NCBI GenBank assembly: GCA_025774605.1 | Contig: JALGVR010000005.1 | Span: forward strand, 1 to 52,312 | Source: a bacterium | GTDB lineage: Bacteria > Electryoneota > AABM5-125-24 > Hatepunaeales > Hatepunaeaceae | Length of the DNA: 52,312 nt | Direction: 5' to 3' | Part shown: in pieces, positions 1,721 to 44,920 of the stretch | How the letters are laid out: every line of letters starts with the position of its first letter | How positions within the stretch are numbered: the first letter of the stretch is position 1 | The notes under the pieces: model-generated | Databases searched by the model: none | The model's input: the letters and a program-made list of their open reading frames with translations, nothing else | Told to the model about the DNA's origin: nothing | Made by a program: the position numbers and the translations under genes

Positions 1721-1731
1721 GCTTCATTGTC

Positions 1732-1751
1732 ATTCCCGCGAAAGCGGGAAT
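1732..1751. repeat. Dispersed palindromic repeat (ATTCCCGC type)
   Basis: ATTCCCGC-GAAA-GCGGGAAT forms an 8-bp stem with a 4-nt loop. The same core appears twice more, in inverted arrangement, inside the element at 6210-6375 (6261-6280 and 6315-6334). Here it overlaps the predicted start of the gcvPB transcript and could form a 5' stem-loop on it. Confidence 0.65.
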
Positions 1752-1753
1752 TT

Positions 1754-1783
1754 AGAATACTGTTATTATTAAGCTTACATCAA
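1754..1783 (-). promoter_or_regulatory. Candidate sigma-70-type promoter for gcvPB
   Basis: On the minus strand TTGATG (-35; 1778-1783) and TATTCT (-10; 1754-1759) are separated by 18 bp. Transcription would start near 1747, giving a leader of nearly 90 nt that carries the palindromes at 1732-1751 and 1709-1720. Both hexamers match consensus only in part. Confidence 0.35.
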
Positions 1784-1918: not shown

Positions 1919-1989
1919 GGAGGGCGGACATTCCTGTCCGCCCCGCGGGCGCAGGGTTAATCCCGATCCCCGGACCGCAAGGGTCCGGG
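1919..1989. repeat. Composite GC-rich palindromic repeat
   Basis: Two palindromes lie side by side: a GGGCGGACATTCCTGTCCGCCC-like unit (1919-1943) and an 8-bp stem CCCGGACC-GCAAG-GGTCCGGG (1969-1989). The first is the same family as the inverted pair at 14512-14586 and the fragment near 9212. Both behave as short dispersed intergenic repeats. No T-tract follows either, so they are not clear terminators. Confidence 0.6.
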
Positions 1990-2059: not shown

Positions 2060-3838
2060 TCAGGAAAACTGCAAACGGTACAGCCTGGCATAGATGCCGT
2101 CCTGTGCCAACAGTTCTTTATGCGTGCCGGTCTCGCGGACGCGACCCTTGTGGATCACCACGATCCTGTCCGCCTGCTGAATGGTTGAAAGCCTGTGAGC
2201 CACCACCAGCGTGGTGCGATCCTTCATCAGCCGCTCCAGCGCCTCCTGTATCTGCCGTTCGGTCTCGGTGTCCACTGCGGACGTGGCTTCATCGAGCAGC
2301 ATAATCGGCGCATCGGCGGCAACGGCGCGCGCTATCGCCAGCAGTTGCTTCTGTCCGCCCGATAGCCTGGCGCCCCGCTCGCCGACCGATTCGTCCATCG
2401 CATCGGGCAATGCCTCGACGAATTCAAGCGCATTGGCGCTCCGCAGCGCATCCTTAAGCTCGGCTTCGCTGACGGCGGTGTCGCCAAGGGTGACGTTATC
2501 GGCGATGGAGCCGCTGAACAGAAACACGTCCTGCTGAACCACTCCGAATACCCTTCTCAGATCGGCGACGTTATATTCTCGAATGTCCCTGCCGTCAAGG
2601 AGTATATGCCCGGACGTCACATCCCAGAACCGTTGCAGCAGGCTGATCAACGTGGTCTTGCCCGCGCCGGTGGCGCCGACGATGGCGACCGTCTGACCGG
2701 GCTCGACACTAAAAGATACATCCGTAAGTACCCTTTCGCCACTCTTGTACTCGAATCCCACCCGGTCGAACTCGACTTTGCCCCTTATGCCTCCGGTCGA
2801 AACCGGTTCCGGCGGATCATCTATCTCCGGCTCGGTGTCGAACAGCCAGAACACCCGTTCCGCAGCCGCCATTGCCGCCTGCATGGTGTTGTAACGCTCG
2901 CTGAGGTCGCGGATCGGCCGGAAGAAGCGTTCGGCGTACTGCAGGAACGCCACCAGCGCGCCCCAGCTCAGCGCGTCGTCCCTGATCATCAATCCGCCGA
3001 CCAGCAGGATCAGCGCGGTGGAGATCGCCGACGTCAACTGAACACCCGGGAAGAACAGGGCGAAATAACGGATGGCTCTCAGGTAGGCGTTGCGGAAATC
3101 GATGTTCAAGAGCCTGAATTTCTTCAACGCATACTTCTTCTTGACAAACAGTTGAACCGTGCGTACGCCGCTGATGTGCTCCTGCATGAAGCCGTTCAGC
3201 TTTGCCAGAGCCTCGCGTATATCACGGAAGGTAACCCGCACCTTTCGCCTGAAAGCAACGACCATCCAGATCAGCAGCGGCAGAACGAGGAAGGTGACCA
3301 GCGCCAGCTTCAGGTTCAACACGATCATCACCACGACGATCCCCACCAGCGTCAGCAGGTCGCCGACTATCGACACCACGCCGGTGCTGAACAGCTCGTT
3401 TAACGTCTGGATGTCGTTGGTGACGCGTGTCATCATCCAGCCGATCGGTTTGGAATCGATGAACTTGACGTCCATGCGTTGCAGGTGGTCAAAGAGCCGC
3501 GTGCGCATGTCAAAAACCACCCGCTGTCCGATCCATTGGGTCAGATACATCTGCAGGGAGCGAAAGATGAACGTTATTACCTGCAAACCCATGAATAACA
3601 GGACGATCCAGCCCAGCCCCTCCAGCCTGCCGACGGCTATATGTTCATCGATGCCGATCTTGATGATCAGGGGCCCCGCCAGCTCCGCGCCCGTTCCGAC
3701 CAGGAGCAGAACGACCGCGCAGACCAGGTGAAGGTAATAACCCTTCATGAAGCCAAGCAGCCTCTTCATCAGCCGGGCGTCGTAAGCCTGCCCGTAGATG
3801 TCCTCATCCGGGCCAAGGGCGTGGGGACCGGGACTCAT
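2060..3838 (-). CDS. ABC exporter subunit B, fused permease-ATPase (catalytically consensus half)
   Basis: A 592-aa type IV exporter half-transporter: six hydrophobic segments in residues 30-330, then an ATPase domain. Visible are Walker A GATGAGKT (388-395), signature LSGGQ (492-496), Walker B MLLDEATSAVD with the catalytic Glu, and the switch His in VVAHRLST. The ATG overlaps the stop of the upstream half-transporter by 4 nt (ATGA), so the two are translationally coupled and almost certainly form a heterodimer like MdlA/MdlB, TmrA/TmrB or TM287/TM288. Substrate unknown; lipids, peptides or drugs are all possible for this family. This half keeps the Walker B Glu that its partner lacks. Confidence 0.92.
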   Translation of the reverse strand: MSPGPHALGPDEDIYGQAYDARLMKRLLGFMKGYYLHLVCAVVLLLVGTGAELAGPLIIKIGIDEHIAVGRLEGLGWIVLLFMGLQVITFIFRSLQMYLTQWIGQRVVFDMRTRLFDHLQRMDVKFIDSKPIGWMMTRVTNDIQTLNELFSTGVVSIVGDLLTLVGIVVVMIVLNLKLALVTFLVLPLLIWMVVAFRRKVRVTFRDIREALAKLNGFMQEHISGVRTVQLFVKKKYALKKFRLLNIDFRNAYLRAIRYFALFFPGVQLTSAISTALILLVGGLMIRDDALSWGALVAFLQYAERFFRPIRDLSERYNTMQAAMAAAERVFWLFDTEPEIDDPPEPVSTGGIRGKVEFDRVGFEYKSGERVLTDVSFSVEPGQTVAIVGATGAGKTTLISLLQRFWDVTSGHILLDGRDIREYNVADLRRVFGVVQQDVFLFSGSIADNVTLGDTAVSEAELKDALRSANALEFVEALPDAMDESVGERGARLSGGQKQLLAIARAVAADAPIMLLDEATSAVDTETERQIQEALERLMKDRTTLVVAHRLSTIQQADRIVVIHKGRVRETGTHKELLAQDGIYARLYRLQFS

Positions 3839-5724
3839 GAGATCTCCCCCAGTTCATCGGCGAGGCGTTGGCGGTGGTACATATCGGCGTAGACACCGCC
3901 GAGCTTCATCAGTTCCTCATGGGTGCCGAATTCAGCCACAGCGCCACCCTCAAGTACTGCGATACGGTCGGCGCGCTCGGACGCGGCGAGCCGGTGAGTC
4001 ACCAGGATTACGGTTTTGCCCTTGAGCCCGGTCTTGATGTTGTTGATGATCTCGGACTCGGTGCGCGTGTCGACAGCGCTGAGGGCGTCGTCCAGGACGA
4101 GTATCGGTGGATCGAGCAACAGGGCGCGCGCCAGCGTGAGCCGTTGCTGCTGACCACCGGAAAGGGTTACGCCCCGCTCGCCGATGCGGGTGTCATATGC
4201 GTCGGGGAAATCGTCTACATCGAGGTCAAAGCGGGCCATCTGTGCCGCGTGCCGGATCTCCTGGACCGTGGCGTCGGGTTTGCCGAATGCGATGTTCTCG
4301 GTGATCGTGGCTGAAAAGAGGAACGGCGTCTGATCAACATAGCCTATCATGCGGCGCAGTCGGGATACCGGCAGTTCGTTCCAGGCCACCTCCCGCCCGT
4401 CAGCCGCCGAACGAGACTCCCGGGAGGCAGTACGTCCAGCCTCAAGCCTCGCCGGGGGCGCGAGCTCGGGAAATCCACTGAGAATCACAGTACCCTGCCG
4501 GGGTTCATACAAGCGGCTTAGTATCCGCAACAGCGTACTCTTCCCCGATCCGGTTCTGCCCACCACGGCGGTGATTTTTCCTTGCGGGAACAGCAGATTC
4601 AGATTGTCAAAGACCTGCGGTCCCTGATCGTTGTAGCTGAAACGGATGTTGCTGAACCTTATGCCGGACGCTTGAGCCTCGGACGCCGGCTGGACGGTCT
4701 TATCGTCGGCTTCATGACCATCAGCCGAGCCGTCATCATCGGAGAACTGTTCATTGACGTCGAGTATCTCCCTTAGTCGCTTGTGTGAAGCCTTGCCGCG
4801 CTGGTAGAGGTGAGTGACCCAGCCCAGTGCGATCATCGGCCAGGTCATCAACGCCAGGTAGCTCAGGAAGGCGATGAAGTCGCCCAGTCCGATAACTCCG
4901 GCGATTACTCTCTGCCCGCCGACCCACATGATACCGGCGACGCCGAACCCGATCAGCATGGTCAAGACAGGCATGAACAGCGCCTGTACCCTTGCCACGA
5001 CCATGCTGCGCTTGAAGTAAAGCCTGCAGGTGGCGGCGAATTTTTCTGATTCGCGCTGCTCGCGCACGAAGGATTTTATCACCCTTGCGCCGGAGAGATT
5101 CTCCTGGACATGCGCCTCCAACGCACCATATACCCTCTGCTGCTGCAGGTTCACACGGTGTATCGTACCGGTCAATGATATCACAACGCCGCCGATGACG
5201 GGCGCCAGGATCATCACGAGCAGCGCAAGTTTGGGATCCAGGTAGAACATCATCGCGGCGGAGAAGATCAGCGTCAGCGAGGTGGCGACCGAGAATTGCA
5301 ACGCCGGTCCCAACACCATCCTGACCCGTTCAAGATCATCGGTCGAACGCGCCATCAGGTCACCGGTCAGGCTGCGGTCGAAGAACTTCGGCGCCAGGCT
5401 GAGAAGGTGGCTGAAATAATTCTCGCGCAGGTCGCTCTCCACCCACCGTGAAGCCCCGATGACCACGCGACGCATCAGGTAACGGAAGACGCCGCCGATG
5501 AAGGCGACGATGATGATCGACCCGGCGAAGCCGTACAGCCAGCCGACAGGACGCGACGCCTGCAGGGCGTTTACGCCCGACCTGAGCAGCATCGGACCCA
5601 GGACGTCAAACGCCGAAGCCAGCGCCGCCGCGGTCAGTCCGAAAGCAAGCCGTTTGCGGTACGGTCTGGTGAATGCGGCCAGAGTGCCAATGAAGCTCGT
5701 ATCATTGAATGACATTCTCTTCAA
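3835..5724 (-). CDS. ABC exporter subunit A, fused permease-ATPase (degenerate ATPase site)
   Basis: A 629-aa permease-ATPase fusion, partner of the gene that overlaps its 3' end. Transmembrane domain about residues 20-310, Walker A GRTGSGKS (389-396), signature LSGGQ (521-525). Walker B reads LVLDDALSAVD (542-552): the catalytic Glu is replaced by Asp546, the hallmark of the degenerate site in heterodimeric exporters. Two features are unusual: an acidic low-complexity linker before the ATPase domain (about 327-352) and an insertion of about 30 residues (419-449) between the nucleotide-binding strands and the Q-loop. The TTG at 5724 overlaps the upstream stop (TTGA) and has GGGAG 4 nt before it; an ATG three codons later is the alternative. 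Confidence 0.9.
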   Translation of the reverse strand: MKRMSFNDTSFIGTLAAFTRPYRKRLAFGLTAAALASAFDVLGPMLLRSGVNALQASRPVGWLYGFAGSIIIVAFIGGVFRYLMRRVVIGASRWVESDLRENYFSHLLSLAPKFFDRSLTGDLMARSTDDLERVRMVLGPALQFSVATSLTLIFSAAMMFYLDPKLALLVMILAPVIGGVVISLTGTIHRVNLQQQRVYGALEAHVQENLSGARVIKSFVREQRESEKFAATCRLYFKRSMVVARVQALFMPVLTMLIGFGVAGIMWVGGQRVIAGVIGLGDFIAFLSYLALMTWPMIALGWVTHLYQRGKASHKRLREILDVNEQFSDDDGSADGHEADDKTVQPASEAQASGIRFSNIRFSYNDQGPQVFDNLNLLFPQGKITAVVGRTGSGKSTLLRILSRLYEPRQGTVILSGFPELAPPARLEAGRTASRESRSAADGREVAWNELPVSRLRRMIGYVDQTPFLFSATITENIAFGKPDATVQEIRHAAQMARFDLDVDDFPDAYDTRIGERGVTLSGGQQQRLTLARALLLDPPILVLDDALSAVDTRTESEIINNIKTGLKGKTVILVTHRLAASERADRIAVLEGGAVAEFGTHEELMKLGGVYADMYHRQRLADELGEIS

Positions 5725-6164
5725 GCAGCTCCCGTTTCGAGGGAACGAACCCGGTACGGCAGCCTTTCACGCAGACCTTCGGCCTCCTCTTGCGTGGGGG
5801 TGATCAGAATTACATCCTCCTTCATGCTCAGCGGGTCGACATCCCCGACGATACGCCATTCACTTTCCCGCCGCCAGTCATGTTTCATCGCCGTATTAAC
5901 CCTTCCGCCCTGAAACTGGTAGTATGTTTTATCCTCAGGCGATAATCGACCATACATGTCCTTCGATCCGTAAATTACCCGGCGGGCGCACAGTTTTCGC
6001 GGCACGCGGGATGTTATCAAAATACAACGATCACAGCCGCTTTCCAATGCCGCGCCAGTTACAGCGACACCTTTAATTAAATGGTTGAAGGATGGTTCGG
6101 CGGACGCAACAGGATATACAGGGAATTCTTTAAGCTGTTCTCGAGGAACGATTTCCACGTTCAA
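5721..6164 (-). CDS. Hypothetical protein, first gene of the ABC exporter unit
   Basis: A 147-aa soluble protein with no signal peptide or membrane segment. I do not recognise the family with confidence. The C-terminal half has a KHDWRRESEWRIVGD stretch loosely like the end of DUF2971-type proteins, which is weak evidence. Two Cys lie in GCDRC and one more in KLCARR. It starts at a TTG (6164), or a GTG two codons later, and its stop overlaps the start of exporter subunit A by 4 nt, so it is probably co-translated with the exporter. The repeat element at 6210-6375 sits directly upstream. It may be an accessory factor, or the 3' remnant of a larger gene. Confidence 0.6.
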   Translation of the reverse strand: MNVEIVPREQLKEFPVYPVASAEPSFNHLIKGVAVTGAALESGCDRCILITSRVPRKLCARRVIYGSKDMYGRLSPEDKTYYQFQGGRVNTAMKHDWRRESEWRIVGDVDPLSMKEDVILITPTQEEAEGLRERLPYRVRSLETGAA

Positions 6165-6209
6165 TTTAAGCCTGATTTAGCCTGCGGTTCTTCGCTTCAT
6201 TGACTGGGA

Positions 6210-6375
6210 GCGCGGACACTACTACCTACTTGAGTAAAAAAGCGTATGAAAGATGCTGTCATTCCCGCGAAGGCGGGAATCCAGGCAACTTACGTAATAT
6301 CAAATGCTTATCTGGATTCCCGCCTTCGCGGGATTAATAACGGTTATATATGCAAGTAGGTACTACCGTCCGCGC
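6210..6375. mobile_element. MITE-like element with terminal inverted repeats and nested palindromes
   Basis: About 166 bp bounded by imperfect inverted repeats of roughly 23-25 bp: the left end begins GCGCGGACACTACTACCT and goes on to ACTTG, the right end is the near complement, ending TACTACCGTCCGCGC. Inside, a 22-bp perfect inverted repeat (6263-6284 and 6312-6333; core ATTCCCGCGAAGGCGGGAAT) surrounds an AT-rich centre, and each arm is itself a small hairpin. No ORF is present. The size, TIRs and lack of coding capacity fit a miniature inverted-repeat element; no target-site duplication is obvious by eye. Confidence 0.55.
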
Positions 6376-6393
6376 ATGCAGCCGATTGCAGTA

Positions 6394-7020
6394 TCACCCG
6401 ATCACGGTCGTCCTCAGCCTCTCGATCTGTTCATCGGTCAACCTCATCGGTTCACCGATCAGGCGGGCGATAAATGTAACCTTTGCGCAGAACTCAAGCC
6501 GTTCCAGCCGGTGGTGGGCTTCGATCAGGGTCTCTCCCGCCGTCAGAGCGCCGTGCCGGTCAAGAATGACGGCATCATGACCGTCGATCAAGCCTTTTAT
6601 TGCTTCCGCTCCTTCAGCGCTCGAAGGCGCGGCGAAGGGCGCGGTCGGGACGCGCCCCAGTGTCATGACCATCTCGGGCAGCAGATCCGCCTCAAGCGAA
6701 ACCCCCGCCAGGCTGAGGGCGACAGTATACGGCGGGTGGGCGTGGATGACGGCGTTGACGTCCGGTCGTATCCGGTATGCCTCGAAGTGCATCGGAGCTT
6801 CACTGGTCAAGCGACCGTCCGTCTCGAGATGACCTCCCCTGTCGCAGACAAGCAGCTCATCCTCGACGAGATCTCCCTTGCACCTGCCGGCGGGTGTAAA
6901 CAGAAACCTGCCGGAGGCCAGCCTGATCGATATGTTTCCATCGGTCGCCACAACCAGACCGCTGTCATACAGTCTATGCGCAACGGAGACAATCTCATGT
7001 CTGGCCTGCCGTTCGTTCAT
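6394..7020 (-). CDS. Class II aldolase/adducin family protein (fuculose-phosphate aldolase-like)
   Basis: A 208-aa zinc-dependent aldolase of the FucA/AraD fold, expected to split or epimerise sugar phosphates. The TDGNISIRL segment, the catalytic Glu in TSEAPMH, the paired zinc ligands in VIHAHPPY, and the third His in LDRHGAL are all present, so the enzyme looks active. Substrate cannot be read from sequence; L-fuculose-1-phosphate, a ribulose phosphate or a methylthioribulose phosphate are possible. The ATG overlaps the stop of the ABC ATPase upstream by 4 nt, an unexpected coupling of a sugar enzyme to an efflux-type ATPase. Confidence 0.9.
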   Translation of the reverse strand: MNERQARHEIVSVAHRLYDSGLVVATDGNISIRLASGRFLFTPAGRCKGDLVEDELLVCDRGGHLETDGRLTSEAPMHFEAYRIRPDVNAVIHAHPPYTVALSLAGVSLEADLLPEMVMTLGRVPTAPFAAPSSAEGAEAIKGLIDGHDAVILDRHGALTAGETLIEAHHRLERLEFCAKVTFIARLIGEPMRLTDEQIERLRTTVIG

Positions 7021-14508: not shown

Positions 14509-14590
14509 CATGGAGGGCGGACATTCCGGTCCGCCCTGAAACTGCCGCCATACAACCACTTGGGCGGACAGGAACGTCCGCCCTCCATGC
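14509..14590. repeat. Head-to-head palindromic repeat pair (BIME-like)
   Basis: Two copies of a GGGCGGAC palindrome (14512-14535 and 14562-14586) face each other. Their outer arms, GCATGGAGGGCGGACATTCC and its complement at 14571-14590, match with one mismatch over 20 bp, so the unit can form either two small hairpins or one large cruciform. It lies between the divergent lipoprotein and symporter genes. Related single copies occur at 1919-1943 and near 9212. Confidence 0.7.
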
Positions 14591-43807: not shown

Positions 43808-44920
43808 ATGTTATCATTCGCCAACAGCCTGGCAATGTTGCTTATCCTGACCGTAAGCGGTTACCAACCGGGGGGGACGTCAGCCCAATACACAGGTGAA
43901 AACTTTTACCTGAAGGAGATAAAACAGCTGTCGCCGGATGTCGGTGAATTGAAGACCGGCTGTATAAGCCCCGACAGTCTGTGGATCTGCTGGCAGGGCA
44001 ACTGCGCGGACGGCTGCATGGGCGATCAGATCTGGATCATGCCGATAATCGGCGGTACACAACGGATGATCTCACCGGCGGTGGGTGAAGCTGTCAAACC
44101 GGTTTTCACTCCGGACGGGAAGCGAGTCGTCTACAGCATGAGCACGGGTCCCGAGCCTGAAAAAATCAATCCGGCTGAACCGGCGTCCAGCCTGCACTGG
44201 CGCCTGGATGACCTGGATATTTACATCACCGACCTTGGGGGCGTCCACCAGACTCAATTGACGAACGTTCCCGGCTTTGACGGCGAGGCGGCGGTGTCAC
44301 CGGACGGGAAAACGGTGGCTTTTACTTCGGTCAGGGACGGCGATGTCGACATTTTCACAATGACCATCGACGGGCTGGCTGCAACTCGGTTGACCGATAC
44401 GTTCGGTTATGACTGCCTGCCGAGATTCTCGCCCGACGGGGAATGGATCCTGTTTTCAAGCTACACGCCCAGGACGGACGCCGAGATAGAGCATTACGGG
44501 GAGATGATCGCCGCCGGCAAGGCAGCCCCACCGTGGCTGGAGCTTGACATAATGCGGGCTGACGGCTCTGAGCGAAGACGGATCACCAACCTGAAGGCGA
44601 TCTCGATCTCGCCGTGCATGCATCCCCATAAAAAAGTCATAGTCTTCTCATCGAATTATAATCAGTCCCCGTTGAGCGGCAAGGGAGGCATTGAAAACTT
44701 CGATCTGTTTATGATCGGTCTCGACGGCACCGGGCTCCGGCAGGTGACCTTTGATCCCAAGTTCGACGGTGAGCCGAGCTTTTCGGGCAACGGTTCGAAA
44801 CTGACCTGGATATCCGGCAGGGGATCAGCTTCCACCGGAGGGCGAAGTATTTATTCTGCGATATGGACGGGGGGAAAGACCGTGCCGGCGCCGGCGCCGG
44901 AGCCGACGACGGGTAATTGA
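43808..44920 (+). CDS. Secreted TolB-like beta-propeller (PD40) protein
   Basis: 370 aa. A signal peptide (residues 1 to about 26) precedes several PD40/WD40-like beta-propeller blades: FTPDGKRVVYSMS, VSPDGKTVAFTSVRDGDVDIF, FSPDGEWILFSSY, FSGNGSKLTWISGR. Cys residues in GCISP and GNCADGCMGD may form disulfides. The fold is that of TolB, but there is no TolB N-terminal domain or Pal/Tol context, so the role is open; a binding or scaffolding protein in the periplasm is likely. It probably ends the plus-strand cluster and is convergent with the DUF2520 gene. Confidence 0.82.
   Translation: MLSFANSLAMLLILTVSGYQPGGTSAQYTGENFYLKEIKQLSPDVGELKTGCISPDSLWICWQGNCADGCMGDQIWIMPIIGGTQRMISPAVGEAVKPVFTPDGKRVVYSMSTGPEPEKINPAEPASSLHWRLDDLDIYITDLGGVHQTQLTNVPGFDGEAAVSPDGKTVAFTSVRDGDVDIFTMTIDGLAATRLTDTFGYDCLPRFSPDGEWILFSSYTPRTDAEIEHYGEMIAAGKAAPPWLELDIMRADGSERRRITNLKAISISPCMHPHKKVIVFSSNYNQSPLSGKGGIENFDLFMIGLDGTGLRQVTFDPKFDGEPSFSGNGSKLTWISGRGSASTGGRSIYSAIWTGGKTVPAPAPEPTTGN

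Follow-up and report, generated by a model that had tools for sequence, protein, structure and literature searches.

A MITE with a CGTC-1 REP dimer as cargo, probably inserted in the loop of an older palindrome of a bacterial genome

A set of nested inverted repeats occupies an intergenic site in the analysed stretch of 52,312 nucleotides (hereafter the window), raising the question of whether a mobile element inserted here, where its borders lie and what its palindromic core represents. Repeat finding identified outer arms of 47 nt (6199-6245 and 6340-6386) with 72% complementarity and inner arms of 22 nt (6263-6284 and 6312-6333) with 100% complementarity. The 23-nt outer arms occur at a single site in the whole window, with 0 expected in shuffles. 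Based on the ORF list and domain search, the upstream neighbour is a class II aldolase gene (PF00596, 6394-7020, minus strand), and the downstream neighbour is an ORF of 147 aa (5721-6164, minus strand) that has no Pfam or NCBIfam match and overlaps the first ABC-exporter gene (3835-5724). All of these genes lie on the minus strand; 31 bp separate the aldolase stop from the element, as delimited below, and 58 bp separate the element from the 147-aa ORF downstream. An Rfam scan of the window returned two tRNAs and nothing else.

The alignment of further copies in the same genome (G000; a 2.83-Mb draft of 175 contigs, 93% complete) enabled us to define the borders. BLAST of window positions 6195-6390 against G000 gave 100 matches. 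A genome-wide search with the end pattern (at most one mismatch) identified 57 ends, compared with 0 for the reversed-pattern control; hand sorting assigned 30 of them to the left and 27 to the right, with 13 left/right pairs on one contig at element spacing, which puts the number of insertions between a minimum of 30 and a maximum of about 43. A large number of contigs stop about 110 bp into an element, as would be expected of a repeat that breaks short-read assembly, and the complete copies are therefore biased towards altered ones. The 14 complete copies in the assembly are 130-170 bp long, with a consensus of 160 bp and a pairwise identity over ungapped columns of 0.950-1.000 (mean 0.984). 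When these copies are aligned with their flanks, similarity starts at TACCTACTTG and stops at CAAGTAGGTA, which places the window copy at 6223-6362 (plus strand, 140 bp). Its terminal inverted repeats, a perfect 10-bp pair of TACCTACTTG, are located at 6223-6232 (plus strand) and 6353-6362 (minus strand, CAAGTAGGTA on the plus strand). The repeats are perfect in 12 of the 14 complete copies, and L086 and L138 carry one change each in the right repeat. An exact 4-bp duplication flanks 12 of the 14 copies (CTAC in five, GTAG in three, CTAA in two, CTAG and ATAG in one each), and in the window it is CTAC at 6219-6222 and 6363-6366; the flanking 4-mers differ at one base in L086 and L138, where the right end is altered as well. 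The duplicated bases in 29 left flanks follow STAS (G/C-T-A-G/C), with T and A each present in 28 of 29. The element is a short non-coding MITE with several near-identical dispersed copies, terminal inverted repeats and a target-site duplication. The first-pass annotation had called it MITE-like with terminal inverted repeats, and this is borne out by the many copies with these ends, by the target duplications and by a gene interruption that is undone on removal of the element.

That interruption is found in contig C152, where a copy (L011, about 5144-5309 of G000:C152) and its GTAG duplication split the frame of a dehydrogenase E1 gene (2-oxoacid dehydrogenase). Joining the flanks less one duplication leaves the frame open, reading ...KDAAV-VTFFGDG..., and the rejoined frame matches E1_dh (PF00676) with an E-value of 2.5e-41. 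Farther downstream the rejoined frame no longer looks family-like by eye, and the gene may have been broken by other causes besides the element. By a simple choice of ORFs, 12 of the 14 complete copies lie outside ORFs of at least 100 codons, three of these 12 having one flank shorter than 90 bases and hence only a partial ORF test; besides the copy within the E1 gene, the remaining one lies in a 165-codon ORF that is maybe spurious.

The window copy is a deletion derivative of the 160-bp consensus, lacking 20 bp at 6333/6334 (the exact base is ambiguous in the copy alignment). Different deletions of 16-30 bp were observed in four of the 14 complete copies (window 6333 and L002, L003 and L010, on C65, C168 and C41, respectively), all starting no more than a few bases from the foot of the second REP hairpin; the long palindrome of the element might be a hot spot for deletions.

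The core of the element reads TGTC-ATTCCCGC-GAAG-GCGGGAAT-CCA, after which the unit is repeated in inverted orientation. It has the features given for CGTC-1 dimers in PMC3733652, namely a TGTC tag, an 8-bp stem beginning with AT, a 4-nt loop, a CCA tail and tags on the outside, and by sequence it is classified as a head-to-head dimer of CGTC-1 REPs. Unit 1 (6257-6283, plus strand) comprises the TGTC tag, the 8-bp stem, the GAAG loop and the CCA tail of that definition (PMC3733652), and the inverted unit 2 (6313-6335, minus strand) has lost its tag here via the 20-bp deletion. The ATTCCCGC-N4-GCGGGAAT palindrome occurs above chance in the window (0.48 expected in shuffles), with exact matches at 1732-1751 and 6261-6280, one mismatch at 6316-6335 and a fourth place with three mismatches at 44425. 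The first of these belongs to a solitary REP-like unit without the ends of the element (1729-1754, plus strand, two mismatches to GTCATTCCCGC-N4-GCGGGAATCCA), in agreement with the earlier remark that the palindrome also stands singly at 1732-1751. Genome-wide, 176 REP places were identified within two mismatches, 71 of them exact over the 26-mer. Hand sorting revealed that the 53 exact REPs with the loop GAAG all lie inside MITE copies and that the other 18, with the loop GCAG or GCAC, all lie outside them, some in tandem arrays. Since every exact GAAG-loop REP is found in the element, the MITE carries and multiplies its own REP subtype.

The core and the ends of the element have different distributions outside G000. 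The element was matched in 33 of 99 genomes including G000, i.e. in 32 of 98 others, where the matches listed cover the core or slightly more (mostly positions 45-135 of the 180-position query, at the widest 26-167), and the best locus in each other matching genome has flanks that differ from those of the element. The end pattern was found in 0 of the 38 other genomes of the phylum. These observations support the initial suggestion that the core is an independent repeat captured inside a larger element. Two near-matches of the ends in relatives had no partner end at MITE spacing. The left-end 18-mer was found at seven places in 84,980 genomes, about the chance level by our own estimate, none with a right end at MITE spacing, and the right-end 18-mer had 0 matches in viral contigs. 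A search of viral contigs with the pair of terminal repeats and a gap yielded two matches, the first in a phage gene and the second in a contig of 4.7 kb; neither includes the inner sequence of the element, and we take both as chance. In plasmids, 20 records match, each of those 20 at the REP core or along its margins. Among the genomes searched the MITE family is seen only in G000, and it is new to the searches made.

Removal of the element and one CTAC from the window joins GCGCGGAC-ACTACC-GTCCGCGC, which forms a stem of 8 bp and has the duplication at the centre of its loop. This reconstructed empty site, GCGCGGACACTACCGTCCGCGC, together with the GCGGAC-N6-GTCCGC repeats of the genome, assigns the left arm GCGCGGAC (6210-6217) and the right arm GTCCGCGC (6368-6375) to host DNA. 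GCGGAC-N6-GTCCGC is a repeat family of G000 in its own right, with 101 forward matches at no more than one mismatch vs 31 for the reversed pattern and three sites in the window (1924-1941, 14517-14534 and 14564-14581). Several of the sites of this family are paired, about 46 bp apart. The loops of its members are mostly ATTCCT and the target loop is ACTACC; the target palindrome would therefore be a diverged member or a look-alike. A stem of at least 7 bp is present at two of 13 testable insertion sites (the 14 complete copies minus one with a flank below 15 bases) vs one of 347 control STAS sites, but the numbers are small and the controls are not matched by coding or intergenic position, and therefore no preference for hairpin loops is claimed.

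The best explanation overall, to which we assign a probability of about 0.93, is a REP-dimer-carrying MITE that duplicates 4 bp and inserted in the loop of an older palindrome. It builds on directly observed copies, ends and duplications, one gene interruption, the REP dimer and the empty-site palindrome. Judging from its ends and duplications, the element would be a non-autonomous DNA transposon moved in trans by a DDE-type transposase, inserting at A(G/C)TA(G/C)T-like sites with duplication of 4 bp, and with a head-to-head CGTC-1 REP dimer as cargo each jump would bring the genome two more REPs. In the window, the element most likely hit the exact centre of the loop in an older palindrome of the form GCGGAC-N6-GTCCGC, which lies between the class II aldolase and ABC-exporter genes, and the 20 bp beside the second hairpin were lost at some point, presumably after insertion. 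The identity of about 98% among complete copies suggests a recent burst. The first-pass annotation had instead taken the entire 166 bp at 6210-6375, including GCGCGGAC and GTCCGCGC, as the mobile unit, in keeping with the good match between the 23-nt arms. The repeats at these positions are real and the arms exist, but the similarity of the 13 other complete copies ends at TACCTACTTG and CAAGTAGGTA, the outer arms are found again as a palindrome family independent of the element, and the outermost GCGCGGAC/GTCCGCGC part is host DNA. We rejected the 166-bp unit, which the alignment of copies refutes and which retains a negligible probability, and corrected the borders to 6223-6362. The outer arms look imperfect because they are a composite of 8 bp of the older palindrome, one base, the 4-bp duplication and the 10-bp terminal repeat of the element, a caution that a nested repeat can owe its outer arms to host sequence. 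It is also very improbable that the REP dimer itself is the mobile unit, spread by a RAYT (Y1/HUH) transposase with passive flanks. The REP core with unrelated flanks in those 32 other genomes and the single Y1_Tnp gene of G000 (IS200-like, L203 1405-1989, G000:C9) would fit such a process, but in all 14 complete copies the full 130-170 bp is shared up to precise ends, and 12 of them have 4-bp duplications, a feature not known from Y1 enzymes. Furthermore, a Y1 gene flanked by the same REP would define a REPtron, and the 2.6-kb locus of this gene holds no CGTC REP within five mismatches; PMC3733652 likewise mentions no transposase gene with CGTC REPs at its flanks. A regulatory hairpin selected at this locus, either an attenuator or an mRNA-stability element, is unlikely as well. 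The very stable predicted folds of the two strands (-84.1 and -89.0 kcal/mol, z -9.6 and -11.2) and the site between two same-strand genes may speak for it; against this, any such MITE folds well, the window copy is damaged, and a scan of 6100-6450 found no promoter- or terminator-like sites. The element may nevertheless affect expression at this site, as the first-pass annotation proposed.

Neither the 93%-complete draft of G000 nor the relatives searched yielded an autonomous partner with these ends. Duplications of 4 bp can also arise from IS5- and IS1380-type elements, and the length of the duplication is not decisive alone. We tentatively regard an IS701-type enzyme as the leading candidate, somewhat short of even odds, and place the chance of a different DDE family that makes 4-bp duplications, such as IS5 or IS1380, just under one half. 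IS701-type genes (PF13546) occur in 4 of 39 genomes (G000 and 38 of the phylum) and in 33 of 386, G000 not being among them: its draft of 175 contigs gave 0 matches, which favours another family. Another point in favour is that G000 has one PF01609 (DDE_Tnp_1) gene, an IS1380-family member located where a contig ends (L096 1060-2229, C142). Its locus contains no TACCTACTTG within one mismatch, the PF01609 genes in eight other genomes have no such ends, and a PF01609-type element of a relative (L192), in which both ends are seen, ends differently. From reading, the IS1380 gene adjoins an opposite-strand ORF resembling an integrase remnant. The IS701 elements of relatives, in contrast, share the YACT core of TACCTACTTG and adjoin CTAG or CTAA. 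Among 25 PF13546 loci examined for inverted ends, six have ends of this kind, including CATTACTTTGTTAAGTA (G006, then CTAA) and CACTACTTTGACA adjoining CTAG (G284), and no such ends were readable at the other 19; the G006 and G012 proteins are named IS701 by NCBIfam. In front of the YACT core that they share with TACCTACTTG, the ends of the relatives are one base shorter. The IS701 ends in Table 1 of PMC2266710 are ---YACT-Y--YR with 4-bp direct repeats, which argues against a non-IS701 enzyme. The MITE resembles this family in its 4-bp repeats and YACT core. Unlike the MITE, IS701 encodes a transposase, its published consensus aligns to TACCTACTTG only with a one-base offset and one position still mismatched (PMC2266710), and no IS701 element was found in G000.

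The nearest precedent for a REP-carrying MITE in the literature consulted is QMITE2 of Coxiella burnetii, as described in PMC5896051. It is likewise a MITE of 150-190 bp with terminal inverted repeats, direct repeats and an internal REP, and some copies lie at gene 3' ends; it differs in its GTAG REP and direct repeats of 7-11 nt, compared with a CGTC-1 dimer and 4-bp duplications here. The small versions of QMITE2 are solitary REPs (PMC5896051), whereas the present MITE holds another REP subtype than the solitary copies. CGTC-1 REPs, among them dRS3 of Neisseria, are widespread and share with the core the TGTC/CGTC tag, 8-bp stem, 4-nt loop, CCA tail and head-to-head dimer, but are described in PMC3733652 as mostly not associated with other repeats and without a dedicated transposase; here the dimer is MITE cargo. 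The CGTC-1 dimers of Halothiobacillus neapolitanus (PMC3733652), which lie in 41-bp palindromes, are also regularly enclosed by flanking inverted sequence; they differ in sequence and are described there as inserted into palindromes, the passage concerned not mentioning duplications. Our literature search found no description of a MITE with duplications that contains a CGTC REP, and the CGTC-REP dimer as MITE cargo is the unusual part of this element.

PMC3733652, the 2013 survey that named the CGTC REPs, leaves their spread as an open question and suggests that a wide range of transposases may mobilize them; in G000 a REP dimer multiplies as MITE cargo. That capture in DDE-type MITEs is a general way for CGTC-REP dimers to multiply and to reach new lineages seems rather doubtful to us; if it were true, solitary dimers across phyla would partly be remnants left after decay of MITE ends. 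PMC3733652 calls the head-to-tail orientation of CGTC REPs negligible. In contigs C43, C141 and C143 of G000, CGTC REPs with the loop GCAG form tandem arrays in this orientation, mostly 36-38 bp apart.
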